From positions 1 to 64,000 of the forward strand of contig JARGXX010000103.1 in NCBI GenBank assembly GCA_030374765.1: a stretch of 64,000 nt of DNA, given 5' to 3'. Every line of letters starts with the position of its first letter. Within the stretch, counting starts at the first letter, position 1. Below, in pieces: positions 5,219 through 56,016 of this stretch. This DNA comes from Agarophyton chilense. Its lineage: Eukaryota > Rhodophyta > Florideophyceae > Gracilariales > Gracilariaceae. The translations under genes and the position numbers were made by a program. A model generated the notes under the pieces. It made no database searches. It saw only the letters and a list, made by a program, of their open reading frames with translations, and was not told the DNA's origin.

Positions 5219-5363
5219 AAATTGCCTGCGGGCACTTTTGGTCAACTGCGAATTACGGCTCATAATTTGCACCCCGAAAGTGCGAAATAATAATGCAAAT
5301 CAACAATCGGGGTGCAAATTATGAGCCGTAATTCGCAGTTGAAATTTATTGCCTGCAGGCAAT
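5219..5363. repeat. Hairpin repeat, copy 2
   Basis: Inner arms of 35 bp, flanked by outer arms related to ATTGCCTGC(G/A)GGCA. It marks the boundary between the ParB-like gene region and the 773-bp array. Confidence 0.92.
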
Positions 5364-5993
5364 CCCAATCGCTCTTTTTGACTACGTCTGCCCACATCCA
5401 AAAACACCCCCCTGGGCCCCCAACACCCCCGTTTTTCGCCTTCGCCCACACGCCCCTCCCTACATTTGCGCCACACTCCTAAACTCTCACCACACCCCTC
5501 ATATCTCGCATACGCCTCTGTAGACCCATATCAAGCGTCATTGCAAAACCGAAAGCCTAATGATGTTTCACAAAACACCTTCACTCGCCCACAACGCTTC
5601 TTCTCCACTGCACCGTGTCACAACTCATGTACATTCAACTTTTCAATTTCAACCAAGTACTCTAAAAAACCAAACTTTCTCACCACTCTCCTTTCTATAC
5701 AGATGCTACTAATTCTCGGAAGTGCACCAAAACATGTCTTTCCACAAACATGTCTGTCGGCACCCTTTACGCGAGCTCGTTCACCATTCAAATTCGACAG
5801 TATTCGCCTGTGGGTAGTGTAAGGTTGGGCGACGCTAGAAAAGGCGTTCAGCCCCAACAGGTTCAATAACCGTCGTTTCCGCCGGTATAAAGCCGTGAGA
5901 GGGAGACACAGGCATGGGAATCGGCTCTATACAGCGTCTATGGCCTTGGTACGGCGCCTGGTAGAAGGGAAACGAGTTTGCTCACATTGAGTG

Positions 5994-6138
5994 AAATTGC
6001 CTGCGGGCACTTTTGGTCAACTGCGAATTACGGCTCATAATTTGCACCCCGAAAGTGCGAAATAATAATGCAAATCAACAATCGGGGTGCAAATTATGAG
6101 CCGTAATTCGCAGTTGAAATTTATTGCCTGCAGGCAAT
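5994..6138. repeat. Hairpin repeat, copy 3
   Basis: Start of the second 773-bp unit; same inner and outer arms as the other copies. Confidence 0.92.
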
Positions 6139-6766
6139 CCCAATCCCTCTTTTTGACTACGTCTGCCCACATCCAAAAACACCCCCCTGGGCCCCCAACA
6201 CCCCGTTTTTCGCCTTCGCCCACACGCCTCTCCCTACATTTGCGCCACACTCCTAAACTCTCACCACACCCCTCATCTCTCGCATACGCCTGCTTAGACC
6301 CATATCAAGCGTCATTGCAAAACCGAAAGCCTAATGATGTTTCACTAAACCCCTTCACTCGCCCACAACGCTTCTTCTTCACTGCACCGTGTCACAACTC
6401 ATGTACATTCAACTTTTCAATTTCAACCAAGTACTCTAAAAAACCAAACTTTCTCACCACTCTCCTCTCTATACAGATGCTACTAATTCTCGGAAGTGCA
6501 CCAAAACATGTCTTTCCACAAACATGTCTGTCGGCACCCTTTACGCGAGCTCGTTCACCATTCACATTCGACAGTATTCGCCTGTGGTAGTCTAAGGTTG
6601 GGCGCCGCTAGAAAAGACGTTCAGCCCCAACCGGTTCAATAACCGTCGTTACCGCCGGTATAAAGCCGTGAGAGGGAGACACAGGCATGGGAATCGGCTC
6701 TATACAGCAGCTATGGCCTTGGTACGGCGCCTGGTAGAAGAGAAACGAGTTTGCTCACATTGAGTG

Positions 6767-6911
6767 AAATTGCCTGCGGGCACTTTTGGTCAACTGCGAA
6801 TTACGGCTCATAATTTGCACCCCGAAAGTGCGAAATAATAATGCAAATCAACAATCGGGGTGCAAATTATGAGCCGTAATTCGCAGTTGAAATTTATTGC
6901 CTGCAGGCAAT
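6767..6911. repeat. Hairpin repeat, copy 4
   Basis: Start of the third 773-bp unit; inner arms unchanged. Confidence 0.92.
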
Positions 6912-7539
6912 CCCAATCGCTCTTTTTGACTACGTCTGCCCACATCCAAAAACACCCCCCTGGGCCCCCAACACCCCGTTTTTCGCCTTCGCCCACACGC
7001 CTCTCCCTACATTTGCGCCACACTCCTAAACTCTCACCACACCCCTCGTCTCTCGCATACGCCTCTGTAGACCCATATCAAGCGTCATTGCAAAACCGAA
7101 AGCCTAATGATGTTTCACAAAACCCCTTCACTCGCCCACAACGCTTCTTCTCCACTGCACCGTGTCACAACTCATGTACATTCAACTTTTCAATTTCAAC
7201 CAAGTACTCCAAAAAACCAAACTTTCTCACCACTCTCCTTTCTATACAGATGCTACTAATTCTCGGAAGTGCACCAAAACATGTCTTTCCACAAACATGT
7301 CTGTCGGCACCCTTTACGCGAGCTCGTTCACCATTCACATTCGACAGTATTCGCCTGTGGTAGTCTAAGGTTGGGCGCCGCTAGAAAAGACGTTCAGCCC
7401 CAACCGGTTCAATAACCGTCGTTACCGCCGGTATAAAGCCGTGAGAGGGAGACACAGGCATGGGAATCGGCTCTATACAGCGTCTACGGCCTTGGTACGG
7501 CGCCTGGTAGAAGAGAAACGAGTTTGCTCACATTGAGTG

Positions 7540-7684
7540 AAATTGCCTGCGGGCACTTTTGGTCAACTGCGAATTACGGCTCATAATTTGCACCCCGAAA
7601 GTGCGAAATAATAATGCAAATCAACAATCGGGGTGCAAATTATGAGCCGTAATTCGCAGTTGAAATTTATTGCCTGCAGGCAAT
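7540..7684. repeat. Hairpin repeat, copy 5
   Basis: Start of the fourth 773-bp unit; inner arms unchanged. Confidence 0.92.
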
Positions 7685-8312
7685 CCCAATCCCCCTTTTT
7701 GACTACGTCTGCCCACATCCAAAAACACCCCCCTGGGCCCCCAACACCCCGTTTTTCGCCTTCGCCCACACGCCTCTCCCTACATTTGCGCCACACTCCT
7801 AAACTCTCACCACACCCCTCGTCTCTCGCATACGCCTCTGTAGACCCATATCAAGCGTCATTGCAAAACCGAAAGCCTAATGATGTTTCACTAAACACCT
7901 TCACTCGCCCACAACGCTTCTTCTTCACTGCACCGTGTCACAACTCATGTACATTCAACTTTTCAATTTCAACCAAGTACTCTAAAAAACCAAACTTTCT
8001 CACCACTCTCCTTTCTATACAGATGCTACTAATTCTCGGAAGTGCACCAAAACATGTCTTTCCACAAACATGTCTGTCGGCACCCTTTACGCAAGCTCGT
8101 TCACCTTTCAAATTCCACAGTATTCGCCTGTGGTAGTGTAAGGTTGGGCGACGCTAGAAAAGGCGTTCAGCCCCAACAGGTTCAATAACCTTCGTTTCCG
8201 CCGGTATAAAGCCGTGAGAGGGAGACACAGGCATGGGAATCGGCTCTATACAGCGTCTATGGCCTTGGTACGGCGCCTGGTAGAAGAGAAACGAGTTTGC
8301 TCACATTGAGTG

Positions 8313-8457
8313 AAATTGCCTGCGGGCACTTTTGGTCAACTGCGAATTACGGCTCATAATTTGCACCCCGAAAGTGCGAAATAATAATGCAAATCAACAA
8401 TCGGGGTGCAAATTATGAGCCGTAATTCGCAGTTGAAATTTATTGCCTGCAGGCAAT
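8313..8457. repeat. Hairpin repeat, copy 6, upstream of methyltransferase-SET gene
   Basis: Left arm 8337-8371 and right arm 8401-8435 are a perfect 35-bp inverted repeat around a 29-nt AT-rich loop (8372-8400). Outer arms (8315-8328 and 8443-8457) can also pair with one mismatch; the right one, ATTGCCTGCAGGCAAT, is itself a 16-bp palindrome. Right after this hairpin the 773-bp unit stops and the unique upstream region of the methyltransferase-SET gene begins. Confidence 0.93.
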
Positions 8458-8900
8458 CCCCCTTTTGCTCCCTCAAACTGCATCTCACGTTAACCGACCC
8501 CGACCGTATTTGAGCTGTCGGCTATCGCTCTTCTGCAGTCCTCTCCGCTTGGCAACGTTCGCCTTTCGAAACTTTGTCGTTGTTTCAGCGGTGTTGCTTG
8601 TTTTGGATTCTTGCGCCCGCTGCGGTATCGAGTTACGATCAAGAACGGCTTTGACGTACACGCACCCGCTAAAGCCCAAGACCTCACCATTGCGCAAACC
8701 CCTACACGGCCCCGCTCTTTGAACCCCTAAACCCCACGACCCCTTCAATCAAGACGCCCTTGCACAACTTCAGCCCCCGAATTCCCCTTCAAAAGAACAA
8801 GTCTCTCTTCGTTCAATCACCCCCCCTTCTATCTCTCTATCTCCGCCCCCAGCCTTCTCCACCGACACTTCGAATATCTCTCCAAGTTCCGTCTTACAAG
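8458..8900 (+). promoter_or_regulatory. Upstream region and leader of methyltransferase-SET gene
   Basis: A 443-bp stretch between the hairpin and the chosen ATG. The last 140 bp are strongly pyrimidine-rich on the plus strand (CCCCCCCTTCTATCTCTCTA near 8819), like the CT-rich leaders of many fungal genes. No clear TATA box was seen. It is unchanged in the second copy apart from one C/T difference near 8533. Confidence 0.5.
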
Positions 8901-11900
8901 ATGGTCACCACCGAAGGTCTCATTGGTTTGTTCTTGCCGCTGCGCGACGCGTACGCCCGCATGCGCCCCGATGATCCCAACGCCCGCGCGCTCCAGTACC
9001 TGGACTTGGTCTACTTCGCAGTTCAGAACCGAGGCTCTGTGCCAGCTGCAGAGGAAGTTTGCTCCTTGGTCGTGCCATCTGAAAAGCACGGCAAGTACAC
9101 CAACACGGAGATACAACACAGCCTCCTCAAAAACAACTACTTTTCTCAGGTGTACCTCATGGCCAGATGTGTGGACCTCGACGATGGTAGCAACGACCGG
9201 CGTCTCAGGGACTTGTACCAGCTCTACCTCCAAATCCAAGCTTCAAGCAATACTTCTGAGCAGCAACCGTCTTCTGCTGCTGGTAATGGTACCACCCGTG
9301 CAAGTGCTCGTTCTTCCAATGCGCCTACAAATCGCCGCCGCCCCAGCCGTCAAGTCGACTTGCTCATTCCGAAAACGGCTCTCTTGTCGTCCTTCCTCAA
9401 ATCGCGCATTCTGCCTCCACAGTCGCAAACTTCCAAGGACAGTCGCTCACGATTCTCCACTACCGTTGAGGCATCTCGTTTTGAAATGGTTTTGTATCTG
9501 TCGATGATCTACACTCTCAAACGCGAGAAACTCAAATCGCGCCAGACCAAGAAACAACGCCTCAATACCGGCGTTGCAACCGCGACCTCTATGTTGCCTT
9601 CGTTGCAAAACTTTAAGCACGAAACGTGCGAGCGAATTTCATTTGTCGTGCACAAGCTTGTGACCTCTTGGAATGTGTTCTGCCGCCATCTTGGGTATGA
9701 CTCACTGGAGCACATGCTCGCTCCGTACATCTTGTTCGACAGCAACACCCTAACCTACCACGCTCTCGAACGCCGCGGCGAAGGCTACGCCCCTTTATCG
9801 CAAACTACCACATTTGCCAAGAACGCACAGCCTTCCAAAGTCCAATCTGAAGTGGACAGCGTCGCCTGGTCCCACACCGACGAGGTTGACCGCAATCTAC
9901 GCGTGCTAGCTTCCGAATTTTTGAACGACCTTCACCGCCTGCTTTTCAACGACTTCCTATACGAAATGGATGAAACCGCTCGCTGGCAATCTTTGACGCA
10001 ATTCGAGTATAACTCGACCGTCGACGTGTACCCTCACCGCTTCACGACGTTCGGTCTGCCACTTTGGACCCCGATTCGAATGGCCATGGTCGGTCCTATT
10101 CCAGGCCAACCCCTCAACCCGGCCGTGGAGATAGCCAAAAAAGAAGCCGAGTTGGTGGACATCATTATGAACGAGTCACAGCAGCAACTTCCGCCTGATC
10201 CAGGAGCGCCACTACCGTCGTCGTCGGAACGCGCCAACGCCGCTGGTCCCTCACCTCCTCCCCAACCCCCAAATCTTCCCTACAACGTCAACGAAACTCG
10301 CGTCCTCCCGCCGCACTCCTTCACCCAAACTACTACTCTCAACGCTCTACAAGAGGCGGAGGACGAAATGGAAAAGCATATTCGCCTCTACGGTGTCGAT
10401 TTCAAAGAATTCGTACAGGTGGATATTATCAAACGAACTACCGCCTCATCTCCAGTCGGAGCAGTGCAACTGGTCCTCACCGACCCGCCTTACAACATTC
10501 GGTCCTTAGCTGGCCGCCACAACAGCAACCACGACGCCATTTCCCAAGACGATATGAAGCGCACGGCGCAGGTTATTGGCGAGCTGATGTGCCCTGGCGG
10601 CCACTTTATTCTCTTTTGCTCCATTCGCCAGTTCAGGCCGTGGTTGTCGTGCTTCAAGAGCATTTCCGAGTCCCATACTGCGCTGTTCAAGGTGGACCCT
10701 GTGCCGTTGGTTTTCGTCCGCGCCGCCTCCCATCCTACTGGGAGCCACCGCGGGCTGCGAACGTCGCCGTTGCCCATCACCGAGTACGCCATTCACGGCA
10801 TCAAAACGGGGCTCACTCACGATGAAAACCTGGCTCGCGTAAACCTCGTCAACTACAACTACGTTCCTTCTCGCTACCCGGCTTACAAGAACGTGATTGA
10901 TAACGTGCCGGGACTAGCCGCTGGCGAGACCCTGCGTTGGAATCGCCTGCATTCTGTCACCAACAATCACAACGCCGTCACTGAAAAAGTACGCCCGGAG
11001 CAGAAGAGTCGTGCTCTACTCAAGGAACTCATAAGCCGCTATTCTCAGCCTGGCGACATGGTGGTGGATTTATTTGCCGGAACGGGTTCCACCGCTTTGG
11101 CGTGCATGGAGCTCCCAGGTCACAGACGCTTTTTGGGGTGCGAGAAAGACGCAGTGTGTTACGCTCACGCAAAACACAATGCTGTCGTTCACTTTATCAA
11201 AACCGTTTTACAGAACAGCACCGACATTGAAGTGCCGCACCATCTCATCGCCAAGTTCAGTCGCCTAGTTCGCTCACTACCGAACACGGACCTGCGATCG
11301 AAATACCTTTGGACCGCGCCTCCCGGTCTGCCACAGTACCAAATTTTTCCTGCGCCGCTCGCTTCCTTTCTCTGCAACTTGTGGAAAGACCGTGAGTTTG
11401 CAGCCGTTTGCCGCACTAAACCGGTGCATGAATGGCCGCGAGAGAAACAGGGCCTTCTCACTCAGATTGATCCGGCTACGTTACTTGCCATAGAAGGGTA
11501 TGCCCATGGAGTGTATACCAAAAAGTCCGACATCCGACACCCCTTGGCGGGAGACGGGGTCTTTGCCGCACGCCAGTTTAATGAAGGCGACACCGTGTGC
11601 TACTTTTATGGAACTCTCGTCTACCACGACCTCTCCAAACGCTCCGCCACACAGTCTTCGTATGCCAACGGTTTGCTCGCCGTCACCGTGGAGCGCTTCA
11701 ACTCCACTTCCATGGAAATCCGAGTGACAGGTCCGGACTTTGTCAGACTGCCCACCCCGGGAGACCGTGGAACCCACTCCATGTGGATCACGCCTGCCCC
11801 GTTCTGTGTTGGCGGAATCATCAATGATGCCCAATACCGCCCAGAGGACCTCGACATTCAGGCCTTACGGGACAAGGTACTCCCCAACCCTCGCACACCA

Positions 11901-12098
11901 AATGTAGTAGCGCGCCTTTCGTCTACTTTGAAAAACTCAAAGTCAGGAATCCAAGACTACCACCTTATCACAATAGTAGCCACCCGAACCATCGAGCGAG
12001 AAGAAGAAGTGCTAATAGACTATGGAAACGACTACGCTCATTGGCCCAGGGTTCCAAAACCACAAACACACACCTTTCATGTGGATCTTGTAGATTAG
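8901..12098 (+). CDS. DNA adenine methyltransferase - SET domain fusion protein, 1065 aa
   Basis: Start at ATG 8901 (CAAGATGG, a good context); the frame is open 47 codons further upstream but only from a TTG. Residues 1-450 are unrecognised, with an S/P/R-rich linker near 120-160. The methyltransferase has beta-class order: catalytic motif LTDPPYNI (DPPY at 528-531), then the SAM-binding motif LFAGTGST (F at 725) followed by GHRRFLGCEKD. DPPY points to amino-methylation, probably N6-adenine. Near residue 880 a SET domain starts: GDGVFAARQFNEGDTVCYFYG, then GGIINDAQYR, PNVVARL and IATRT-like VATRTIEREEEVLIDYGNDY near 1025-1045; this resembles the SET subfamily using YIND...NV...VDYG instead of the classical NHSC form. 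One polypeptide could thus modify both DNA and a protein lysine. It is followed 969 bp downstream by the recombinase-helicase gene on the same strand. No introns are apparent. Whether either active site works is untested. Confidence 0.82.
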   Translation: MVTTEGLIGLFLPLRDAYARMRPDDPNARALQYLDLVYFAVQNRGSVPAAEEVCSLVVPSEKHGKYTNTEIQHSLLKNNYFSQVYLMARCVDLDDGSNDRRLRDLYQLYLQIQASSNTSEQQPSSAAGNGTTRASARSSNAPTNRRRPSRQVDLLIPKTALLSSFLKSRILPPQSQTSKDSRSRFSTTVEASRFEMVLYLSMIYTLKREKLKSRQTKKQRLNTGVATATSMLPSLQNFKHETCERISFVVHKLVTSWNVFCRHLGYDSLEHMLAPYILFDSNTLTYHALERRGEGYAPLSQTTTFAKNAQPSKVQSEVDSVAWSHTDEVDRNLRVLASEFLNDLHRLLFNDFLYEMDETARWQSLTQFEYNSTVDVYPHRFTTFGLPLWTPIRMAMVGPIPGQPLNPAVEIAKKEAELVDIIMNESQQQLPPDPGAPLPSSSERANAAGPSPPPQPPNLPYNVNETRVLPPHSFTQTTTLNALQEAEDEMEKHIRLYGVDFKEFVQVDIIKRTTASSPVGAVQLVLTDPPYNIRSLAGRHNSNHDAISQDDMKRTAQVIGELMCPGGHFILFCSIRQFRPWLSCFKSISESHTALFKVDPVPLVFVRAASHPTGSHRGLRTSPLPITEYAIHGIKTGLTHDENLARVNLVNYNYVPSRYPAYKNVIDNVPGLAAGETLRWNRLHSVTNNHNAVTEKVRPEQKSRALLKELISRYSQPGDMVVDLFAGTGSTALACMELPGHRRFLGCEKDAVCYAHAKHNAVVHFIKTVLQNSTDIEVPHHLIAKFSRLVRSLPNTDLRSKYLWTAPPGLPQYQIFPAPLASFLCNLWKDREFAAVCRTKPVHEWPREKQGLLTQIDPATLLAIEGYAHGVYTKKSDIRHPLAGDGVFAARQFNEGDTVCYFYGTLVYHDLSKRSATQSSYANGLLAVTVERFNSTSMEIRVTGPDFVRLPTPGDRGTHSMWITPAPFCVGGIINDAQYRPEDLDIQALRDKVLPNPRTPNVVARLSSTLKNSKSGIQDYHLITIVATRTIEREEEVLIDYGNDYAHWPRVPKPQTHTFHVDLVD

Positions 12099-13067
12099 TT
12101 GTTTCTTTTCTTTCTCAGTAGAACACAACTAAAAACTAAACCTTCTCTCCTAAGAACAACCACGCGCAAACTCTCTTCCTTCATTCGTTTTAAAAACAGA
12201 AAACCTATAACCTTCTTCTTCGGCCCCCACTGCCACGCCCCGCAACATCTCACTTCTTTTGCCAAACACCATCATAACGTTACACAGTGCGCATACTGTA
12301 ACACATAGCACCCCTCCTACCCACGTCACATGTAGCACCATTTTTCCAAAATCAACGGTCAAACATGTCGCATATGCATATATGAGCTCAACCGCGGTGC
12401 AGCACCGCTTGTGCTCAAACTAATACGTGTGTACGATACGCCACCACCGCCACTAGTTAGCCGTTCTGAAAACGTCATGCTTCACAACAAGTTGCCACAT
12501 TGCCGCACAACATCCGCTGGCGCACCCGATCGCGCGCCAGCTCGTTCTAAACCTCCGTCCATTTACACACAAGTCCGAACCCACCCTGAAAACTTCTGCC
12601 CTCCCCCAACCCGACTCCACCACCGCGCAGCCCCATCTCTTCTCTGTGCTGCCCTTTTTCCCCTTCCCGCTCCCCCCCTGCACGGAAACCACGCCCCTTA
12701 CACAAAATCACTCTCCTCAATGGGGCGGAGGCCAATGAGCTTTATTGTGACACACTCCTCCCCACAACCCCACAGTCATACACCGGGAATGAATGACCTG
12801 CAATACCAAATAGTATCGTGAAGGTTCCCTTGTACAGTATGCCATTTGCTCAAGCCAGCCACACGCGCCCTCCCCCAAAACACCAAACCGCCTTTCTCCA
12901 ATTACCCTCGCCCCACCTATTTACTACTTATACTGCTATATCGGCAGTGAACCCGTCCATTTCGCTGATGCTCCCAAACTCGATTGTGTTTGTTTGTGTG
13001 TGTCTTTCTTTGCGTCTTCAAAAACAATCCTCCCAAGCGTCTTCTTCTCTCTCTTACACGTTCAGTT
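12099..13067 (+). promoter_or_regulatory. Intergenic region between the two cassette genes
   Basis: 969 bp holding the 3' end of the methyltransferase-SET gene and the promoter of the helicase gene. Near 12387-12417 is an imperfect hairpin with perfect core arms GCGGTGC and GCACCGC around one base, just after the palindrome-like CATATGCATATATG. The final 110 bp form a T/C-rich leader ending in CACGTTCAGTTATG. Several short open frames have no motifs and are not called as genes. Confidence 0.5.
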
Positions 13068-16000
13068 ATGTCGCAAAACAGCTTATCCTCCGCCGGCGAA
13101 CATGGCTTGCCCGTGTTCATCCCCTCTTCGGTGCACAGCCCACCGAGGGCTGCGGTGAACATCTCACCGCCCACTCCCCCTAATCCCCTGCTCCCCCCAC
13201 CGCCTCCGCCCGTGGCGCGTGACGCCCATGCTCAACCCCATTCCGACTTACCCGTTACCGACGCAAATGCAGCCGACGATTCTTCCTCTTTTATCATGGC
13301 ACTCGGTACCATTGTGAATATGGGTATTCATTCTATTGGGTTCTTTCCGTTGTGCGTCAACTGCCAGTGTGGGCTGCCGTCTGCCCGCGCAATCCAACAT
13401 CACTTGCGCAAACAGCACTCCATCCCTTTGGAAATTGCAAGTCCCATGTCAATGGCAATCCTGCACGAGGTGCACACCTTGCGCAACAACTCTAACGTTG
13501 CCCCCGTGTGGCAAAAGTATCGCCCCCAACACAACGCTCAATTTGTGTCCGGGCCCTCTACGTTCCTCACGCCCCTGGCACACATTGCCATTCACAATGG
13601 CTATCAGTGCCCGCTCTGCAAATTCTGCTACCTCGACCCCGTTCGTTTGCAAGCGCATCTGATCGAATGCCACAATATGTCGCCTGCGGTTGCCCAGCCA
13701 CACCTTGACCGTACCGTCTCGTCGGGCCGTATTGCCTTGCAGACAGTGTACGGCGGCGTTCGTCGCCGTTTATTCCCCGTTACCAATGCTCAACCCATAG
13801 GCTGCTTGTCCAAAACTTTCCAGGTTCCGCAGGCGCCTGCGGCACGGCCTGATACCCCCCCGGCGCAGCCTGTTTGTCTCCAACCACCCCATCGTCCAGT
13901 GGCAACGACTGCCAAAGGCATCGAGCCCCCGCTTCAACACATTAACCACTTTTTACAAAAGTTCAACACCGGCGCTCCTTGTTCGCAATCAGACCCTTTG
14001 CTTCGTCACCACTCGGAGAAGAATTCTTTCATCACCTTTTCCAAGTTTGACATCGTTCTTCACTCGCTTCATGTTCATCTGGATGTGGCGGCTCAACTAT
14101 CCAGAACTGGCACAACGCCCACATCCGCTGAAAGCACCATCACCCACCACATCTTCGACTACCTCTCTCAGGTGAACATTTTGGTTAGTAAGACCTCCCT
14201 GGCTTTCTTGGACCGCCTCAACAAGCGCACCGACACAGCTTTTAAAACTGTCTCCACTGAAACCCTCAAGCGTTACGCTTCACACATTTCCCGTTTGCTT
14301 GTGTTTACTCACAGGACAAGGGCAAACCTCCCTCATCTCGTACCCGACTCAGACCTCATGTACTGCTACACTACTTCCGTGTTGGATGCCATTCGCATGT
14401 CTTCCTCTGGTGAGCTCCCCGCTCCCTTTCCTCCAACCCAACATGGCCCAGCGGTCCATAGCGCGCTCAAGCCCTTCTTGCTTCAATCTTTAGCGCCATA
14501 CCACTCTTTGGATCTCCTCTCCGTTCGCAACTTCATTGCTTGCGCAAGCGTGATAAGCACCGACCCCAACCCGCCTATCGCTGCCCCCTTGCCGTCTGAC
14601 CGCACGCCTGAGCCTTACGACACGGTCATTTCTCACGACCCCAACAATACCTCCTTTCGTTTTGCAGCCGCCTCAGATGTGACGCACCTCCTCGCCGCTC
14701 TTCAATATGGCATCTGTGCCTGCGCCATACACGAACTGCACGTGCTCTCCAAATCTTCTCCCCTGTTGCAACCTGCCACCCCTGCTTCCGAACGCCCAGT
14801 TCACGTTCAAGAACGCATGCGTACCATCGACGCGGCAATCGACGCTGATTCCAACAACGCCCTTTCGTTTGTCAGAAAGACACTCACGCTTGCAATGTCC
14901 ATATCCTCTCGCGAGGAAATGTTCGTTTCTTTCCACAATTGTGATGTTCACCCGTCCTGCGGCATAGTGCGTGACACTCACCTCGCCCTCTCAGAAGTCG
15001 GCTCTTTGGTTTTAACTCTACACAAAGAAATACAACATACTCTTCACAACGACCTGCTTCTTGGCCACGCTCTGCCAACCGGTTTCACAAACGCGCTACA
15101 CTCACTTCAGGACGACTCCTTCAACAAAAGCCCAGGCTTTTCTTTCCTTACCAACCTCAACAACCGCCCATTTATCGAACAAAACATGGCTTTCGTTTTC
15201 ACTTGTCTCACGTCTTCCATGCCCCACAACTCCAACACCGACCACACTCCGTTTCTTCCGCAACGCAAGCAAAACGGTACCTTTCCCCGCACACAACTGC
15301 CCACAACCGACATTTTGGGCACCGATATGTTCACGCATGCGTTGTCGAGGTGGCTCTCATGTGCACAGAAAATCCAAGAACGCCTGTTGGTTGCGCTACA
15401 CCTTTCGTCGGGCTCTCCTGCGCGCGGCACAGAGATTGAGACATACCGTATCCACAACGACCAACACTTTCAACGTTGTCTCATGCTCATCGACAAATCG
15501 CCTGTCCTCATTTGCCGGTACATGAAAACGCGAAACAGCAAAGGGGCCGCCACTCCGATTGCTCGCTTTCCCGATGCCCAAACATCCCGTCTTCTGCTCA
15601 TGTACTTGACTCTGATACGTCCGTTTGAAGCATATATCGTCCGCTGCCTACACGGAGAAAACTGTTTCCAGATGCATTGGAAAATGCTGTTCGCCAACTG
15701 CGGAATTCCGTATGCCGCAAACACCATCCGCTCGATAATCAGCTCTCACTTGAGCAAACGCGGTTTCCCGATATCCTTCAACGACTATAGAAACTTCACC
15801 GTGGGAATGACCAACACAGTTTCCAATGTCACCGCATCTTCTGTAGCCGATCACATCTTGGAAGAGCTATTGACCACTGCCCATGGCCAGGCGGGCCACT
15901 CTGCGCACACCGCCGCTTTTCTTTACGCTCGTACACCACATGACATATCCGGTTTGCAGCACTCTCAACTTTCCAAATATCGCGAGTGGTCCAGCAAATG

Positions 16001-18611
16001 GCACCAGTATCTCGGTCTTCTTCTTAATGCTCCCCTCACCCAACAACAACAACAACAACAACACCACAGAAAACGTCCGGTTACTGACACAGTTCTACCT
16101 ACACCTGAACCAAAGCGCTCCATCCATACATCGCAGCCAACCCCGTCCCCTCCCACTGACCGCTCTGCGATCCCCCATTCTCAAATCAACCTAAACCTGG
16201 CCGCCTCTCATCCTTTCAATCCACATCCGCCTGCTTTTATGGCAGCCGCCATACCGCGCGGTGGAGCTTCTCTCTTACAACAACCGCTTGTGACCTACGA
16301 ACATATTACATCAGAAATGCTCCGAGCACTAAGACAGGCACTTTCCAACGACTCCGCTTTATTCAAGTCCCACCAACAATTTGTGAACACAGCGGCCGTG
16401 TACAACAGGCTGTCCAACATGCTACTACTCCAGCCGACTGGATCTGGAAAAACACTATCTCTTCTGCTCCCCGTCTTCATGGAAAAGGGCAAATACTCCA
16501 CCGTTCTCATCACCCCTCTCACAGCCTTGCTCAGTGAATACGAACTGCGCGCTCAGCTCTTCGGCCTTCGTGCTTCTCGTACACCCACCCCTCCCGGATC
16601 GCACTCCTTTGCCGACATTTACATCTTTTCCGCTGAAAGACTTTCTCTTCCTTCTTTTACAGAGTTCACCACGCGACTGATCGCCGCCGACCGCCTCGCC
16701 CGCATTGCCATCGATGAATGTCACTTATTTCTTTTATGGCAACACTTTCGCCCGTGCTTGGCCAACCTCCACAACTGCTTCGGCCATATTCCCACAAAGA
16801 TCCCTCGCGTGCTTTTAAGCGCGACAGTGCCGCCGCGCGACCGCCCCCTTCTTCTGTCGCAGCTGCATATCCCGAACGCGCATGTGTACGCTTCTTCGAC
16901 TGCAAGAAACAACATTTCTTTTGTCGTGTATCAGCTAAGCTCAGCCCCCAGCACTTCGCGTGCCACACGCTTTCGCGCCGCTCATGGCCACTTTCAGGAT
17001 GTGTTTGGATACCTGCTTCAGCTGGGCGTCTCAATCATGCAAGAGCATGTGGCTCGATTGCTTCACTCGTCGGCTGACACAACCCTAGCTCGCGTTCTTA
17101 TATTCTCGTTAACACGCCCGGCTGCCGAAGCTGTCCATGAAGCTCTCGCCGCTTCGCGTTCTTCTTTTGGTGCCCTTAAACAATCCACTACTGTCACGGT
17201 TCTCCTGTACCATTCTGGTCTCTCCGATGTTCGTAAACGCCGGGCTCACACCCTTTGGAACTCTCCGCCTTCTTCCAGCGCACCCACAACCAACCACATT
17301 CTCTTCATGGTTTGCACCTCTTCTTTTGGTACGGGCATCGACGTTCCCAACGTTCGCCTGGTTTTCAACTTTGGTGGAGTAGCGAGTCTTTGCGACCTCG
17401 CGCAACAGGCCGGCAGGGCCGGCCGCGATGGAAACCCATCCACTTGCGTCACCATTTATTTCCAGCCCTACTTCAAACTCGTTACGGAAACTCTTTCTTC
17501 GTCCTCATCCAACACAAATGCGTTTGAGGAGCCCAATCGCATATACAACCAAGCACTTTCCACGGAGCGTTGGTTGGAAGCGCAGCATTGGGTCGAATGC
17601 AAATCTGTTTGTCGAAGGAACGCCCTCTATTTCCACATGGACGGAAAAGAACCAGGCATCTGTCTCTTCTCTCCTTCGGTTCTTAATTGCGATATTTGCA
17701 ATAGCATCGCAGCTGTCTCCCCCTCTCCCACCCCGGAACGAAGCTCCGTTTCCGCTACCCCTTCTGCCTCTCAGCACGCCCAATCCATTTCACCGTCACC
17801 CAGCGCTTCCCCACAAACGCCCACGCCGCCAAAAAACCGTGCCAATCAATCAAACAGAACATCCTTAAACAACCAAAACACCAACACCAACGGCGGCCCA
17901 ACACAAAGCCCCAAACCCCACGCCAGTCGTCCACCACGACCCCCCACCTCCACTCCATCGCCGTTGCTGACAACCACGCATCCATCCGCAGCGACCCAAT
18001 CGCCCACTGTCGCTCATTCTCAATCTCAGTCGCACTCTGCCACCTTCTTTTACACCTTGGAACGAAAAACACCGCAACAAATCGTGTCACACTTCGAGGA
18101 GCTCTCCCGCCGACTTGCCCCTCTCTGTGTGCCATGCTTGCTGCACGAAAAAACGCAAGTGCACTTGACGGACACTCATGCATGCCCCCATTCCCGTCAA
18201 CGATGCTTCAGATGCTTTTCGCCGCACCATATATCGCGCAACTGCAGGTTCGATAAATCACCTCAAGGAACCTGCTACCGTTGCCATCTCGGATTCTGCA
18301 AGGGACTCAAAACTCATTCTCAACCGCACACTTTTGGAACAAGACACTGCATCTTCATTTCGCTCTATCAACTGGCATGGGTCTTGTGGCGAACATGCTC
18401 CAAAACTCGCTCCGAAATTGCACTCCACCTCTTTGACGGCCGCATGCAATCCAAGTTCAACTCCATTTCCCAATCCTCCCAAGATTCCTCACCCCTCCAC
18501 CTTGAAATAGACGCCATGTTTCATGATTGGTTAACACACAACAACCACTTTGCCGTACCCAACATTCTACGCCTTGCAGCTTGGTGGAAGTCAACCACAA
18601 CACTCATTTAA
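13068..18611 (+). CDS. Zinc finger - tyrosine recombinase-like - RecQ helicase protein (telomere-linked helicase type), 1847 aa
   Basis: Start at ATG 13068 (MSQNSLSSAGEHG); upstream the frame continues only from a TTG. Two C2H2-like fingers: C96/C99 with H-rich HHLRKQH, and C181/C184 with AHLIECH. The region 500-970 matches the fungal recombinase-like module beside such helicases: PARGTEI (R786), DYRNF (R908), GHSAHTAAFLYAR (H944, Y953), then WHQYLGL. The spacing fits a tyrosine recombinase R..R..H..Y set. After a Q-rich linker comes a RecQ-like helicase: Walker A QPTGSGKT (1122-1129), DECH (1216-1219), SATVPP, GTGIDVPNVRLV, QQAGRAGRDG (1446-1455), and a RecQ-type zinc site (C1511, C1515, C1532, C1541, C1544). 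An S/T/P-rich linker leads to a CCHC knuckle (C1713, C1716, H1721, C1726) and CYRCHLGFC (1736-1744). Known relatives are subtelomeric in fungi and are linked to telomere maintenance when telomerase fails. A DNA-binding, recombining, unwinding enzyme in the nucleus is inferred. Confidence 0.85.
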   Translation: MSQNSLSSAGEHGLPVFIPSSVHSPPRAAVNISPPTPPNPLLPPPPPPVARDAHAQPHSDLPVTDANAADDSSSFIMALGTIVNMGIHSIGFFPLCVNCQCGLPSARAIQHHLRKQHSIPLEIASPMSMAILHEVHTLRNNSNVAPVWQKYRPQHNAQFVSGPSTFLTPLAHIAIHNGYQCPLCKFCYLDPVRLQAHLIECHNMSPAVAQPHLDRTVSSGRIALQTVYGGVRRRLFPVTNAQPIGCLSKTFQVPQAPAARPDTPPAQPVCLQPPHRPVATTAKGIEPPLQHINHFLQKFNTGAPCSQSDPLLRHHSEKNSFITFSKFDIVLHSLHVHLDVAAQLSRTGTTPTSAESTITHHIFDYLSQVNILVSKTSLAFLDRLNKRTDTAFKTVSTETLKRYASHISRLLVFTHRTRANLPHLVPDSDLMYCYTTSVLDAIRMSSSGELPAPFPPTQHGPAVHSALKPFLLQSLAPYHSLDLLSVRNFIACASVISTDPNPPIAAPLPSDRTPEPYDTVISHDPNNTSFRFAAASDVTHLLAALQYGICACAIHELHVLSKSSPLLQPATPASERPVHVQERMRTIDAAIDADSNNALSFVRKTLTLAMSISSREEMFVSFHNCDVHPSCGIVRDTHLALSEVGSLVLTLHKEIQHTLHNDLLLGHALPTGFTNALHSLQDDSFNKSPGFSFLTNLNNRPFIEQNMAFVFTCLTSSMPHNSNTDHTPFLPQRKQNGTFPRTQLPTTDILGTDMFTHALSRWLSCAQKIQERLLVALHLSSGSPARGTEIETYRIHNDQHFQRCLMLIDKSPVLICRYMKTRNSKGAATPIARFPDAQTSRLLLMYLTLIRPFEAYIVRCLHGENCFQMHWKMLFANCGIPYAANTIRSIISSHLSKRGFPISFNDYRNFTVGMTNTVSNVTASSVADHILEELLTTAHGQAGHSAHTAAFLYARTPHDISGLQHSQLSKYREWSSKWHQYLGLLLNAPLTQQQQQQQHHRKRPVTDTVLPTPEPKRSIHTSQPTPSPPTDRSAIPHSQINLNLAASHPFNPHPPAFMAAAIPRGGASLLQQPLVTYEHITSEMLRALRQALSNDSALFKSHQQFVNTAAVYNRLSNMLLLQPTGSGKTLSLLLPVFMEKGKYSTVLITPLTALLSEYELRAQLFGLRASRTPTPPGSHSFADIYIFSAERLSLPSFTEFTTRLIAADRLARIAIDECHLFLLWQHFRPCLANLHNCFGHIPTKIPRVLLSATVPPRDRPLLLSQLHIPNAHVYASSTARNNISFVVYQLSSAPSTSRATRFRAAHGHFQDVFGYLLQLGVSIMQEHVARLLHSSADTTLARVLIFSLTRPAAEAVHEALAASRSSFGALKQSTTVTVLLYHSGLSDVRKRRAHTLWNSPPSSSAPTTNHILFMVCTSSFGTGIDVPNVRLVFNFGGVASLCDLAQQAGRAGRDGNPSTCVTIYFQPYFKLVTETLSSSSSNTNAFEEPNRIYNQALSTERWLEAQHWVECKSVCRRNALYFHMDGKEPGICLFSPSVLNCDICNSIAAVSPSPTPERSSVSATPSASQHAQSISPSPSASPQTPTPPKNRANQSNRTSLNNQNTNTNGGPTQSPKPHASRPPRPPTSTPSPLLTTTHPSAATQSPTVAHSQSQSHSATFFYTLERKTPQQIVSHFEELSRRLAPLCVPCLLHEKTQVHLTDTHACPHSRQRCFRCFSPHHISRNCRFDKSPQGTCYRCHLGFCKGLKTHSQPHTFGTRHCIFISLYQLAWVLWRTCSKTRSEIALHLFDGRMQSKFNSISQSSQDSSPLHLEIDAMFHDWLTHNNHFAVPNILRLAAWWKSTTTLI

Positions 18612-18638
18612 GCACGATTTTAGATTCCAACCCGGTAC

Positions 18639-18644
18639 AATAAA
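18639..18644 (+). promoter_or_regulatory. Possible polyadenylation signal AATAAA
   Basis: A canonical AATAAA lies 28 bp after the helicase stop codon, in GGTACAATAAACACC. The spacing is plausible for a short 3' untranslated region. Confidence 0.4.
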
Positions 18645-19029
18645 CACCCATTCTTCTTTCTCCATTTTGCTTTCAACTCTCTTCCTTGCCACAGAAAACC
18701 ACATTTCCTACTCTTTATACTTAAGTATAACGCCAAACACCCCATATTCGACCGTTACATTACACCCAACCCAGCAACAAGCGTTATTCAAACGACTCTA
18801 TCTCCAGCTCAACCTCAGCCCCTAAATACCCCAACTCCGCCTCAAAAATACAGTGTAACGAAACAACCTACACTCTATATCAGTCCTACACATAAAGCCC
18901 AGTACACTTATCGAATGCAGGTCGCTCAACACAGAACTTTATCCAACCACCGCAGATATCGAGTACACCCTCAAACAATCTGTTCACCACGCATTCGTAC
19001 TATAATGGAACTTGACGTCTCGACTCTAG
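18645..19029. other. 3' flank of helicase gene, no gene seen
   Basis: A C/A/T-rich non-coding stretch with few G on the plus strand. Some substitutions between the two duplicate copies fall here. Nothing recognisable. Confidence 0.5.
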
Positions 19030-19320
19030 ACTCCTAAAACCCCTTAAATCCAATAAACGCAAAGCTTCCCCTAAAACCCCTAAAGCCCTCCAGCCCCTAA
19101 ACAATGTTTTCCTCTCCGTAAATAAAAAATCCCATAAAGGTAAAGTTTCCCCTAAACCCCCTGAACCCCTGAACCCCTGAACCTCTAAAACCCCTAAAAC
19201 CCCTACACAATGTTTTCCTCTCCGTAACTTCAAAATCCCATAAAGGTAAAGCTTCTCCTAAAACCCCTAAACCCCTCAACCCCTAAACCCCTAAACCCCT
19301 GAAACCTGTAAAAGCCCGTA
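19030..19320 (+). repeat. Interstitial telomere-like tract (CCCCTAAA type)
   Basis: Many degenerate copies of CCCCTAAA or ACCCCTAAA, best at 19258-19305 (AACCCCTAAACCCCTCAACC and onward). They are interspersed with two longer repeats starting ACAATGTTTTCCTCTCCGTA and ending CCCATAAAGGTAAAG. The C-rich strand is the plus strand, the orientation expected if a chromosome end lies to the left. It resembles a degenerate telomere tract (TTTAGGGG on the other strand) but is not a pure array. Confidence 0.65.
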
Positions 19321-20216
19321 CACAATGGTTTCCTCTACGAAAACGTAAACTCCCGTAGGCCCTGACCGATAGCTACTTAGTGGCGATGCCACTGTTGGAC
19401 AAACCTTAACGTCATAAGAATCTACCTGTCATCGTTAAGCATACGTCATCCCTACCTCACTAAACGCACTGCACGCGTCTTCTTTAGCTGAGAGTGTGGC
19501 GCCAGCACTCGCGTGACCTACTACTCACCACACTCAACCTACATTGAACTTGGCAATACCATCGAATATCGACCCCCAGTGTTGCCGGATATGAAAACCA
19601 TCCTAGAACCAAGCGCAAACCCACCTTTTTCAGCCGCGTACACGACCCCAAAAACGCACATACAAAACGCCTGACAATGTGCCATCTGCCTCCACGAAAT
19701 AGCCACAGAACCAAGCGCAAACGCATAACACAACCCTTTCTTTTGATAAAAATTTCGCACATTATCCAGCTTACAACACAGCTCGACTGTGCAGCGGAGA
19801 TGTGGCTGAAACCAAGCGCCTTTGAGTGCCACACTCGACGCACGCCTCCACGTTGTGCAGCAAAAATGTTACAATAAAACATGTGCAAACGCAGGATTTG
19901 GCAGAAAGCCCAGCGCGCCTAAAATTTATGATTTTTTCAAATGCAAATATTGCGAAAATGGGTGCTGCGCGCCAACATCTGGCAATTCGCGCGCTACGTT
20001 ACCCGAACGAAGCGCCTGAGCGCAATTAGCCACGATTTTTTGAGCGTGCCAATGTGTCATACGCGCTCTCCAGCACAACGTTTTCCATCCAGGGGGTCAA
20101 AATCGCACATACGTCGAATGCAGCGCGTGGCGCTTGGTGTATGTAATTACCAAGCGCTACTGACAACTGCGTTTTACCAAGCGCCAGCCCACACTTACAA
20201 CCTGTAATATATATAG
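19321..20216. repeat. End region of the cassette with ACCAAGCGC motifs, copy 1
   Basis: Non-coding region with a fixed right end (CAACCTGTAATATATATAG) shared by four copies in the window, each followed by different DNA. The 9-mer ACCAAGCGC occurs at 19608, 19710, 19811, 20149 and 20176, and once inverted (GCGCTTGGT at 20130). The inverted and direct sites at 20130-20157 form a perfect 9-bp-arm hairpin. Small minus-strand open frames of about 100 codons lack motifs and are not called. It could hold binding sites for an element-encoded DNA-binding protein (inference). Confidence 0.7.
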
Positions 20217-23200
20217 ACCTTTTCTCAGATTGTAAAACCCCTCCCAAACACACCCAAATCCGAAGCTTTTCGAAAATTAGATCAGATCATCTAGCGGCCA
20301 CCATGTTCAACTGTACACTTTGGATTTCTCTAAGATCCTCCCTCACACGTCTTCCTACGTGTTTAGCCGCGTTACATGCCCGTGCAACGTGTAGTCCAGT
20401 GCCCAGAGATGAGTTTGGTATGGCAACTGTCACAAGTTCATACACACCCGTGGTGTCTCAGACACCCGTTTTGTCTCAGACACCCGTTTTGTCTCGGACA
20501 ACCTCCATTTTTGGCACCTTCTATCGCGCTTTTCTAGTCTCGATCAGACTTGCATTTGCGGTGTACTGAGGCCTGCTATTCGGTAGATTTAATCAAAATA
20601 CATGTCTGGCTGCTTGACCTGCGCCACAGCATAATTTTTACAATTTTTTGTCTGGCCGGCCCTGTTTTCAACTCAGACACAGACATCAAAAAATTCATTG
20701 ATTTTTCAGCATGCCAAAACACCAATATATTCAGGGGTTTAGAATTCAATGCCTTTTCAGCTTACTAAAACACCATTATATTGAAGATTGTTTTCCTTAC
20801 TGCAAATATAAAACCCCGTAATGGTGCATCTTCCCCTAAACCCACCTCTTTTCTCAAGGGACTGCAAGTCATTCAAACATTTTTCGGCATGCTAAAACGC
20901 CAATCATCACACGGTTTTTGTGTCCAACTCGGTCCCTCTTCAGCACTCTTACACATCATTCACATCCAACACACTCTCCTCAGCCCTACTTGTGCGTGTC
21001 CACAGTTCGGTGAATCACGAGCTAGTCATCTGCCGTCTACCGCACACACGGCAAAGACCTTTTCTCAGATTGTAAAACCCCTCCCAAACACACCCAAATC
21101 CGAAGCTTTTCGAAAATTAGATCAGATCATCTAGCGGCCACCATGTTCAACTGTACACTTTGGATTTCTCTAAGATCCTCCCTCACACGTCTTCCTACGT
21201 GTTTAGCCGCGTTACATGCCCGTGCAACGTGTAGTCCAGTGCCCAGAGATGAGTTTGGTATGGCAACTGTCACAAGTTCATACACACCCGTGGTGTCTCA
21301 GACACCCGTTTTGTCTCAGACACCCGTTTTGTCTCGGACAACCTCCATTTTTGGCACCTTCTATCGCGCTTTTCTAGTCTCGATCAGACTTGCATTTGCG
21401 GTGTACTGAGGCCTGCTATTCGGTAGATTTAATCAAAATACATGTCTGGCTGCTTGACCTGCGCCACAGCATAATTTTTACAATTTTTTGTCTGGCCGGC
21501 CCTGTTTTCAACTCAGACACAGACATCAAAAAATTCATTGATTTTTCAGCATGCCAAAACACCAATATATTCAGGGGTTTAGAATTCAATGCCTTTTCAG
21601 CTTACTAAAACACCATTATATTGAAGATTGTTTTCCTTACTGCAAATATAAAACCCCGTAATGGTGCATCTTCCCCTAAACCCACCTCTTTTCTCAAGGG
21701 ACTGCAAGTCATTCAAACATTTTTCGGCATGCTAAAACACCAATCATCACACGGTTTTTGTGTCCAACTCGGTCCCTCTTCAGCACTCTTACACATCATT
21801 CACATCCAACACACTCTCCTCAGCCCTACTTGTGCGTGTCCACAGTTCGGTGAATCACGAGCTAGTCATCTGCCGTCTACCGCACACACGGCAAAGACCT
21901 TTTCTCAGATTGTAAAACCCCTCCCAAACACACCCAAATCCGAAGCTTTTCGAAAATTAGATCAGATCATCTAGCGGCCACCATGTTCAACTGTACACTT
22001 TGGATTTCTCTAAGATCCTCCCTCACACGTCTTCCTACGTGTTTAGCTGCGTTACATGCCCGTGCAACGTGTAGTCCAGTGCCCAGAGATGAGTTTGGTA
22101 TGGCAACTGTCACAAGTTCATACACACCCGTGGTGTCTCAGACACCCGTTTTGTCTCAGACACCCGTTTTGTCTCGGACAACCTCCATTTTTGGCACCTT
22201 CTATCGCGCTTTTCTAGTCTCGATCAGACTTGCATTTGCGGTGTACTGAGGCCTGCTATTCGGTAGATTTAATCAAAATACATGTCTGGCTGCTTGACCT
22301 GCGCCACAGCATAATTTTTACAATTTTTTGTCTGGCCGGCCCTGTTTTCAACTCAGACACAGACATCAAAAAATTCATTGATTTTTCAGCATGCCAAAAC
22401 ACCAATATATTCAGGGACTGCAAGTCATTCAAACATTTTTCGGCATGCTAAAACGCCAATCATCACACGGTTTTTGTGTCCAACTCGGTCCCTCTTCAGC
22501 ACTCTTACACATCATTCACATCCAACACACTCTCCTCAGCCCTACTTGTGCGTGTCCACAGTTCGGTGAATCACGAGCTAGTCATCTGCCGTCTACCGCA
22601 CACACGGCAAAGACCTTTTCTCAGATTGTAAAACCCCTCCCAAACACACCCAAATCCGAAGCTTTTCGAAAATTAGATCAGATCATCTAGCGGCCACCAT
22701 GTTCAACTGTACACTTTGGATTTCTCTAAGATCCTCCCTCACACGTCTTCCTACGTGTTTATCCGCCTTACAGGCCCGTGCAACGTGTAGTCCAGTGCCC
22801 AGAGATGAGTTTGGTATGGCAACTGTCACAAGTTCCTACACACCCGTGGTGTCTCAGACACCCGTTTTGTCTCGGACAACCTCCAGTTTTTGCACCTTCT
22901 ATCGCGTTTTTCTAGTCTCGATCAGACTTGCATTTGCAGTGTACTGAGGCCTGCTATTCGGTAGATTTAATCAAAATACATGTCTGGCTGCTTGACCTGC
23001 GCCACAGCATAATTTTTACAATTTTTTGTCTGGCCGGCCCTGTTTTCAACTCAGACACAGACATCAAAAAATTCATTGATTTTTCAGCATGCCAAAACAC
23101 CAATATATTCAGGGGTTTAGAATTCAATGCCTTTTCAGCTTACTAAAACACCATTATAGTGAAGATTGTTTTCCTTACTGCAAATATAAAACCCCTTAAT

Positions 23201-26200
23201 GGTGCATCTTCCCCTAAACCCACCTCTTTTCTCAAGGGACTGCAAGTCATTCAAACATTTTTCGGCATGCTAAAACACCAATCATCACACGGTTTTTGTG
23301 TCCAACTCGGTCCCTCTTCAGCACTCTTACACATCATTCACATCCAACACACTCTCCTCAGCCCTACTTGTGCGTGTCCACAGTTCGGTGAATCACGAGC
23401 TAGTCATCTGCCGTCTACCGCACACACGGCAAAGACCTTTTCTCAGATTGTAAAACCCCTCCCAAACACACCCAAATCCGAAGCTTTTCGAAAATTAGAT
23501 CAGATCATCTAGCGGCCACCATGTTCAACTGTACACTTTGGATTTCTCTAAGATCCTCCCTCACACGTCTTCCTACGTGTTTATCCGCCTTACAGGCCCG
23601 TGCAACGTGTAGTCCAGTGCCCAGAGATGAGTTTGGTATGGCAACTGTCACAAGTTCCTACACACCCGTGGTGTCTCAGACACCCGTTTTGTCTCGGACA
23701 ACCTCCAGTTTTTGCACCTTCTATCGCGTTTTTCTAGTCTCGATCAGACTTGCATTTGCAGTGTACTGAGGCCTGCTATTCGGTAGATTTAATCAAAATA
23801 CATGTCTGGCTGCTTGACCTGCGCCACAGCATAATTTTTACAATTTTTTGTCTGGCCGGCCCTGTTTTCAACTCAGACACAGACATCAAAAAATTCATTG
23901 ATTTTTCAGCATGCCAAAACACCAATATATTCAGGGGTTTAGAATTCAATGCCTTTTCAGCTTACTAAAACACCATTATAGTGAAGATTGTTTTCCTTAC
24001 TGCAAATATAAAACCCCTTAATGGTGCATCTTCCCCTAAACCCACCTCTTTTCTCAAGGGACTGCAAGTCATTCAAACATTTTTCGGCATGCTAAAACAC
24101 CAATCATCACACGGTTTTTGTGTCCAACTCGGTCCCTCTTCAGCACTCTTACACATCATTCACATCCAACACACTCTCCTCAGCCCTACTTGTGCGTGTC
24201 CACAGTTCGGTGAATCACGAGCTAGTCATCTGCCGTCTACCGCACACACGGCAAAGACCTTTTCTCAGATTGTAAAACCCCTCCCAAACACACCCAAATC
24301 CGAAGCTTTTCGAAAATTAGATCAGATCATCTAGCGGCCACCATGTTCAACTGTACACTTTGGATTTCTCTAAGATCCTCCCTCACACGTCTTCCTACGT
24401 GTTTATCCGCCTTACAGGCCCGTGCAACGTGTAGTCCAGTGCCCAGAGATGAGTTTGGTATGGCAACTGTCACAAGTTCCTACACACCCGTGGTGTCTCA
24501 GACACCCGTTTTGTCTCGGACAACCTCCAGTTTTTGCACCTTCTATCGCGTTTTTCTAGTCTCGATCAGACTTGCATTTGCAGTGTACTGAGGCCTGCTA
24601 TTCGGTAGATTTAATCAAAATACATGTCTGGCTGCTTGACCTGCGCCACAGCATAATTTTTACAATTTTTTGTCTGGCCGGCCCTGTTTTCAACTCAGAC
24701 ACAGACATCAAAAAATTCATTGATTTTTCAGCATGCCAAAACACCAATATATTCAGGGACTGCAAGTCATTCAAACATTTTTCGGCATGCTAAAACACCA
24801 ATCATCACACGGTTTTTGTGTCCAACTCGGTCCCTCTTCAGCACTCTTACACATCATTCACATCCAACACACTCTCCTCAGCCCTACTTGTGCGTGTCCA
24901 CAGTTCGGTGAATCACGAGCTAGTCATCTGCCGTCTACCGCACACACGGCAAAGACCTTTTCTCAGATTGTAAAACCCCTCCCAAACACACCCAAATCCG
25001 AAGCTTTTCGAAAATTAGATCAGATCATCTAGCGGCCACCATGTTCAACTGTACACTTTGGATTTCTCTAAGATCCTCCCTCACACGTCTTCCTACGTGT
25101 TTAGCCGCGTTACATGCCCGTGCAACGTGTAGTCCAGTGCCCAGAGATGAGTTTGGTATGGCAACTGTCACAAGTTCATACACACCCGTGGTGTCTCAGA
25201 CACCCGTTTTGTCTCAGACACCCGTTTTGTCTCGGACAACCTCCATTTTTGGCACCTTCTATCGCGCTTTTCTAGTCTCGATCAGACTTGCATTTGCGGT
25301 GTACTGAGGCCTGCTATTCGGTAGATTTAATCAAAATACATGTCTGGCTGCTTGACCTGCGCCACAGCATAATTTTTACAATTTTTTGTCTGGCCGGCCC
25401 TGTTTTCAACTCAGACACAGACATCAAAAAATTCATTGATTTTTCAGCATGCCAAAACACCAATATATTCAGGGGTTTAGAATTCAATGCCTTTTCAGCT
25501 TACTAAAACACCATTATATTGAAGATTGTTTTCCTTACTGCAAATATAAAACCCCGTAATGGTGCATCTTCCCCTAAACCCACCTCTTTTCTCAAGGGAC
25601 TGCAAGTCATTCAAACATTTTTCGGCATGCTAAAACGCCAATCATCACACGGTTTTTGTGTCCAACTCGGTCCCTCTTCAGCACTCTTACACATCATTCA
25701 CATCCAACACACTCTCCTCAGCCCTACTTGTGCGTGTCCACAGTTCGGTGAATCACGAGCTAGTCATCTGCCGTCTACCGCACACACGGCAAAGACCTTT
25801 TCTCAGATTGTAAAACCCCTCCCAAACACACCCAAATCCGAAGCTTTTCGAAAATTAGATCAGATCATCTAGCGGCCACCATGTTCAACTGTACACTTTG
25901 GATTTCTCTAAGATCCTCCCTCACACGTCTTCCTACGTGTTTAGCCGCGTTACATGCCCGTGCAACGTGTAGTCCAGTGCCCAGAGATGAGTTTGGTATG
26001 GCAACTGTCACAAGTTCATACACACCCGTGGTGTCTCAGACACCCGTTTTGTCTCAGACACCCGTTTTGTCTCGGACAACCTCCATTTTTGGCACCTTCT
26101 ATCGCGCTTTTCTAGTCTCGATCAGACTTGCATTTGCGGTGTACTGAGGCCTGCTATTCGGTAGATTTAATCAAAATACATGTCTGGCTGCTTGACCTGC

Positions 26201-55983: not shown

Positions 55984-56010
55984 GCACGATTTTAGATTCC
56001 AACCCGGTAC

Positions 56011-56016
56011 AATAAA
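56011..56016 (+). promoter_or_regulatory. Possible polyadenylation signal AATAAA, second copy
   Basis: Same AATAAA 28 bp after the helicase stop as in copy 1. Confidence 0.4.

Follow-up and report, generated by a model that had tools for sequence, protein, structure and literature searches.

A 64,000-nucleotide stretch of the genome of the red alga Agarophyton chilense (positions 1 to 64,000 of contig JARGXX010000103.1, assembly GCA_030374765.1; hereafter, the window) contains one open reading frame whose predicted protein joins a bacterial-type DNA methyltransferase and a SET domain of divergent sequence. This pairing of domains is unusual. The chromatin domain linked to the methyltransferase is a putative writer, the gene lies in an element-like setting, and a single protein might, in principle, act on both DNA and histones. 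A first-pass annotation had described such a fused enzyme and a second copy of it, and the duplicated, helicase-bearing, repeat-rich surroundings of the gene (Table 1) change the picture that it drew.

One frame with two domains

The open frame, from a TTG at 8760 to the stop ending at 12098 (first ATG, 8901), comprises 1,112 codons, as against a longest open run of 294 codons in 300 single-base shuffles of positions 8100–12400. The N-terminal region, methyltransferase, linker and SET domain follow one another in this single frame, uninterrupted between the two domains as first annotated, with Pfam families PF01555 and PF00856 both above their curated cut-offs and with motif positions that agree with the residue ranges originally given for the methyltransferase (500–770) and the SET domain (870–1050; residue numbers from the ATG are those of the TTG frame minus 47). 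The linker between the two domains contains no stop or frame change, and in all 18 segments of 240 nt starting inside the gene, linker included, the codon score of this frame exceeded those of the other two forward frames (scores were trained on the neighbouring helicase gene). The reported second intact copy was recovered with an identical translation. Such identity could stem from gene conversion or assembly as well as from a very recent duplication, and it provides no independent evidence of constraint or selection. Two basic stretches in the N-terminal region could be nuclear localization signals.

The methyltransferase half is of prokaryotic type and matches PF01555 (E = 2.1e-16; 61 bits against a curated cut-off of 26.7; model positions 1–216 of 221) and PHROG family 67 (DNA methyltransferase; E = 5.6e-25). 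Its motifs stand in the beta-class order that had been proposed, with DPPY (residues 528–531) ahead of the recognition region and then FAGTG (within residues 720–735), and DPPY is invariant across this protein and five phage or archaeal-virus methyltransferases that share 27–29% identity. Among solved sequences, the nearest are 5hek/5hfj (listed once as DpnA and once as M1.HpyAVI) and CcrM. A Rossmann-type methyltransferase fold is predicted, with 109 core residues at a predicted local distance difference test score (pLDDT) of at least 90 (joint model, made with 55 relatives), and the top Foldseek matches of the model in the PDB were CcrM (E = 3.2e-14) and M.BceJIV (E = 1.6e-12), with M1.HpyAVI and MboIIA among further matches. 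A tree of 88 proteins gave the window protein its longest end branch (3.01) and no sister with support; identity to the other rows reached 30% at most, and the tree does not point to a donor. An identity as an MT-A70 enzyme was rejected (no Pfam MT-A70 match at E ≤ 0.1), and METTL3 appeared among the fold matches only remotely, from rank 47.

A DPPY motif favours adenine as the target base, and adenine N6 would most likely be the methylated position, rather than cytosine N4. Among 192 matches to the methyltransferase region (from 3,851 open frames of at least 80 residues at 165 loci; E ≤ 0.01), the first xPP(Y/F/W) pattern was DPPY in 117, DPPF in 23, SPPY in 7 and another form in 4, with none in 41, a count that takes the first pattern match per sequence and is a rough guide only. 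PF01555-type domains have repeatedly evolved specificity for N6-methyladenine (6mA) or N4-methylcytosine (4mC) (PMC8885841).

By sequence, the C-terminal half of the protein is a SET domain, divergent and with putative catalysis. The first-pass annotation had staked its claim on profile searches finding this domain, and PF00856 was found across its full model (positions 1–105 of 105; E = 1.3e-5; 26 bits against a curated cut-off of 22.4), while an independent SET profile scored 25.8 bits over two pieces (9.3 and 14.4), against 8.4 bits for the best of 5,000 shuffles. This profile drew on the 11 of 27 prokaryotic loci that were recognized by motif pattern (the other 16 were dropped), and its control, which included a reversed sequence, gave a score to 3,143 of 5,002 sequences; the reversed sequence was not among the five best. 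Counted from the ATG, the motifs are GDGVFAARQF (from residue 884), IIND (973–976), PNVV (1000–1003) and EEVLIDYG (within 1035–1045), the last supplying the expected tyrosine of the ExxxxDY block. With phmmer, two blocks aligned with SETD8/KMT5A, the initial GDGVFAARQFNEGD and the final HLITIVATRTIEREEEVLIDYG (best PDB E = 0.0013 jointly), and Pfam, phmmer and the independent profile all recovered both in order.

Several observations weigh against two working domains in one gene. In the methyltransferase model, the recognition region is low in confidence, and the sequence has RPEQKS in place of the HPTQKP consensus of 56 rows, in which the H and the P are each kept in at least 90% (the K is kept in all 56). 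The protein was rejected as a CcrM equivalog, because its 40.5 bits against the CcrM model, its nearest in NCBIfam, fall far below the cut-off of 830. Other observations concern the SET half: singly, the two pieces aligned with SETD8 are weak (E = 0.34 and 77); the middle motif was covered by none of the sequence-search alignments examined; IND stands where NH(S) is usual, with the asparagine kept and the histidine replaced in an uncertain part of the alignment; 23 residues separate IND from PN, where the usual form is NHS.C.PN; an isoleucine lies two residues ahead of the DYG tyrosine; and the post-SET cysteine motif was not found in the alignment. Structure prediction, envisaged earlier for both active sites, yielded a confident, CcrM-like core for the methyltransferase and low confidence for the SET half (mean pLDDT 35.9 when folded alone; for the most part under 50 when modelled jointly). 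In addition, codon scores were approximately 0.0 across the final 70 residues of the frame, and the segment just past the stop scored alike, so that the score is uninformative there. The SET half could be inactive or serve in binding alone.

We also searched for other proteins with this domain pair, of which the first-pass annotation knew no established family. Single-sequence scans of IMG/VR, which reach close relatives only, gave no confirmed relative of the whole protein, of its methyltransferase, SET or N-terminal parts, or of the helicase. Among alignment-based scans, that with the methyltransferase considered the best 80 of 385 viral and the best 80 of 189 prokaryotic confirmed stretches, and that with the SET domain gave no confirmed relative. 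The 3,851 open frames that contained the 192 methyltransferase matches included no match (E ≤ 0.01) to the SET or the N-terminal region, and in a Pfam scan of 60 proteins, SET was present in the window protein and in none of the 59 prokaryotic and viral relatives. None of 315 phage records spanned 80% of the fusion protein, and the 20 matches listed covered the methyltransferase region alone. These collections are viral and prokaryotic and therefore say little about eukaryotes, whose sequence sets lay outside the scope of the search. In the openly licensed literature, no methyltransferase–SET fusion was found described among the matches listed, in line with the earlier statement, although a prior description is possible. 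A fungal SET survey lists four groups in which SET is the sole recognizable domain and one SET protein with helicase domains, with no DNA methyltransferase fusion in the excerpted text (PMC9692433), and literature on subtelomeric helicases in chytrids offered parallels only. As a side observation on the methyltransferase relatives, a ParB-family gene directly precedes a related methyltransferase gene in Klebsiella phage F14 (L001:93-1714), and ParB_N was present in 1 of the 60 proteins scanned.

A duplicated, repeat-rich setting

Beginning 0.9 kb downstream of the end of the fusion gene is a second large frame (1,875 amino acids) that encodes a helicase described here as RecQ-like only, since NCBIfam RecQ models match it below their cut-offs. 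Taken by itself, the pairing of OrsD with this helicase would point to a eukaryotic, probably fungal, host. Both genes lie within a block that is present twice, the copies being separated by approximately 24 kb that is nearly all satellite (the window has 35 satellite copies, of which the main array contains 32). The DNA of the two blocks is 100% identical over 8542–14529 (~6 kb), and over 8105–20252 they differ at 56 positions, 6 of which fall inside the helicase gene; their flanks differ too. All ten telomere-like tracts found by pattern search have their C-rich strand on the plus strand; if these tracts are telomeric, the chromosome end would for that reason lie to the left. The setting resembles Y'/TLH-type subtelomeric elements, with a RecQ-like helicase in a repeated unit, and the unit is probably subtelomeric.

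Table 1. Coordinates of features in the window (position 1 is its first nucleotide).
Feature	Position	Strand	Basis or remark
Methyltransferase–SET fusion gene, copy 1	8901..12098	+	1,065 amino acids from ATG; frame open from TTG 8760
Methyltransferase–SET fusion gene, copy 2	46273..49470	+	Identical protein; open frame 46132-49470
N-terminal region of fusion protein	8901..10400	+	No match to any family above cut-off
Basic stretches in N-terminal region	9330-9353, 9519-9566	+	Candidate nuclear localization signals, by eye
PF01555 (N6_N4_Mtase) match	10464..11162	+	Pfam; residues 569-801 of TTG frame
Methyltransferase motif IV, LVLTDPPYNIR	10470..10502	+	Residues 524-534 from ATG; DPPY 528-531
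Methyltransferase motif X/I region, KVRPEQKS...FAGTGST...GCEKD	10986..11150	+	Alignment with relatives
PF00856 (SET) match	11550..12026	+	Pfam; residues 931-1089 of TTG frame
SET motif III, divergent: GGIIND, 23 residues, PNVVAR	11811..11915	+	Alignment
SET motif IV, EEVLIDYGNDY	12003..12035	+	Alignment
Helicase gene, copy 1	12984..18611	+	OrsD zinc-finger region, DEAD and Helicase_C; RecQ-like
Helicase gene, copy 2	50356..55983	+	6 differences (4 silent) from copy 1; no stop
Duplicated block, copy 1	8118..21576		13.5 kb; 99.28% identical to 45490-58936
Duplicated block, copy 2	45490..58936		Counterpart of 8118-21576
Direct repeats of ~775 bp upstream of copy 1	5219..8460		Final 343 bp found again where block copy 2 begins
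Satellite array	20194..45492		Spacing mostly 822 bp, also 698, 716, 840
Degenerate telomere-like CCCCTAAA tracts	19068..19306		Pattern search
Degenerate telomere-like CCCCTAAA tracts, copy 2	56440..56678		Pattern search
Degenerate telomere-like CCCCTAAA tracts beyond second block	59642..59934		Pattern search

Some further features of the window were noted. The helicase core looks intact (GSGKT, DECH and QQAGRAGRDG), and by eye the middle part of the same frame looks tyrosine-recombinase-like (GSPARGTE ... GHSAHTAAFLY; no family matched). Satellite spacing alternates among 698, 716, 822 and 840 bp, and many stretches are 100% identical, which suggests recent homogenization of the units. Beside the telomere-like tracts lies a repeat of ~0.85 kb (19356-20216, 59931-60690 (shorter) and 60688-61548) whose copies are 96–98% identical. 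At the left of the window, three consecutive minus-strand frames (1050-4879; 787, 221 and 247 amino acids) had no Pfam match above cut-off and, by eye, look like a ParB-like domain with an oxygenase-like end after it, and may belong to one intron-bearing gene; at 1-120, GCGAATTACGGCTCATAATTTGCACCC and its complement form, by eye, an inverted repeat that is imperfect. Rfam at gathering thresholds gave no match in the window.

Proposed role and alternatives

We tentatively propose, as a possibility that falls somewhat short of probable, that the fusion protein is a bifunctional writer, a beta-class methyltransferase with a divergent SET domain. Its gene would be carried as cargo by a repeat unit that bears a helicase gene and is probably subtelomeric, and its likeliest role would be to set the chromatin state of that unit. 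The methyltransferase half would mark DNA, most likely with 6mA, the SET half would methylate a nucleosomal lysine nearby, the N-terminal region would target or dock the protein, and the DNA and nucleosome marks, laid together in cis on the repeats, would set the state of the unit. The sequence itself establishes that both domains share one frame, the order of the genes and the duplication; that either domain is catalytic, that the base is adenine, that the substrate is a histone and that the protein acts in cis on the repeats is what we infer here. We lean, weakly, towards marks that keep the unit active rather than silence it, since species with AMT1, a 6mA writer of an unrelated kind, show a correlation between 6mA and transcription (PMC12695648). 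A bolder version, which seems rather unlikely, would make the unit a selfish or semi-selfish chromosome-end element whose one-protein dual writer always sets adenine and lysine marks together, keeping the element expressed and amplifiable.

The main alternative, which we consider somewhat unlikely, is that only the methyltransferase works and that the SET region is a degenerate remnant or a module that places the enzyme on chromatin, the role suggested for the chromodomain in the rotifer protein N4CMT. The unusual SET motif III and the contrast between the two halves (26 bits against a cut-off of 22.4 for SET; 61 bits and a well-modelled core for the methyltransferase) would be explained in this way, and the known precedent, N4CMT, is a chromatin-reading fusion (PMC8885841); the SET region, however, continues the open frame, covers the whole Pfam model and keeps both the IND asparagine and the DYG tyrosine. 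That the fusion is instead an ordinary host chromatin gene in a repeated region, unconnected to the helicase unit, we regard as distinctly unlikely: the helicase is a separate gene, no transposase family was detected among the nine window proteins scanned with Pfam, and the window contains no inverted repeat of at least 200 bp (shorter ends, target-site duplications and other signs of transposon ends were not searched for), but fusion and helicase genes are duplicated as one block, between repeat families.

An element that recruited the enzyme for silencing of itself or its neighbours, by 6mA or 4mC plus a repressive lysine mark on repeats, would have its analogy in the 4mC and silent chromatin marks of rotifers; the association of 6mA from other writers with permissive chromatin (PMC12695648) argues otherwise, and we consider such silencing very unlikely. 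The identity of the copies over 6 kb, as if assembly had duplicated one locus, and the weak coding signal in the last 70 residues could also be read as an artefact, in which an assembly or gene-model error joins two genes. This is extremely improbable in our view, as the linker has no stop or frame change and carries coding signal in the same frame throughout, and as the 56 differences between the blocks (8105–20252; 6 in the helicase gene) and their unlike surroundings argue against a simple copy of one locus.

If the bifunctional writer is real, its interest lies in how DNA and histone marks are coupled. Known links between DNA and histone methylation pair the writer of one mark with a reader of the other (for example, plant CMT3/KYP and rotifer N4CMT; PMC8885841). 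Two writers in one protein would be a simpler coupling than such writer–reader pairs, and would indicate that chromatin control can directly incorporate a DNA methyltransferase of bacterial type. 6mA in eukaryotes is debated, and the fusion would provide a clean test of whether it cooperates with a histone mark in a eukaryote.

Comparison with known systems

In motif order, DPPY and predicted fold, the methyltransferase half is like the prokaryotic beta-class adenine methyltransferases CcrM, M.BceJIV, M1.HpyAVI, MboIIA and RsrI, whereas Pfam found no SET domain in 59 relatives from prokaryotes and viruses. The SET half is like SETD8/KMT5A and other SET methyltransferases, with which its GDGVFAARQFNEGD and HLITIVATRTI..EEVLIDYG blocks align, and unlike SETD8/KMT5A in its IND for NH(S), in the 23 residues before PN and in the absence of post-SET cysteines from the alignment.

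For the setting, the closest parallels come from transposon cargo and from chromosome ends. In the oomycete Phytophthora, the DNA transposons HarbingerS and MuDR carry SET genes, and fungal DNA transposons carry TET/JBP genes (PMC12730594); the window gene would similarly encode a chromatin- or DNA-modifying enzyme on a repeated element. It differs from these in its helicase neighbour and in the union of methyltransferase and SET in one protein, and Pfam recognized no transposase in the nine window proteins that it was run on. Fungal subtelomeric RecQ helicases (PMC7473861) and yeast Y' elements, which carry interstitial telomeric tracts (PMC13177704), share with the window a RecQ-like helicase, a duplicated unit and telomere-like tracts. 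Unlike those units, the window blocks lie ~24 kb apart, and the window helicase has an OrsD match where the Agaricus subtelomeric helicases have no domain beside the helicase core (PMC7473861); the excerpts mention no methyltransferase or SET gene for the fungal RecQ or Y' elements (PMC7473861 and PMC13177704).

As a protein, the fusion can be set beside N4CMT of bdelloid rotifers, structures of which (8s9m, 8s9n and 8s9o) ranked 20–29 among the fold matches to the methyltransferase model, with only 16–18% identity in the fold alignments. N4CMT is a 4mC enzyme with a chromodomain reader and no SET writer, but, like the window protein, it is a eukaryotic protein in which a bacterial-type, permuted amino-methyltransferase of family PF01555 is joined to a chromatin domain (PMC8885841).

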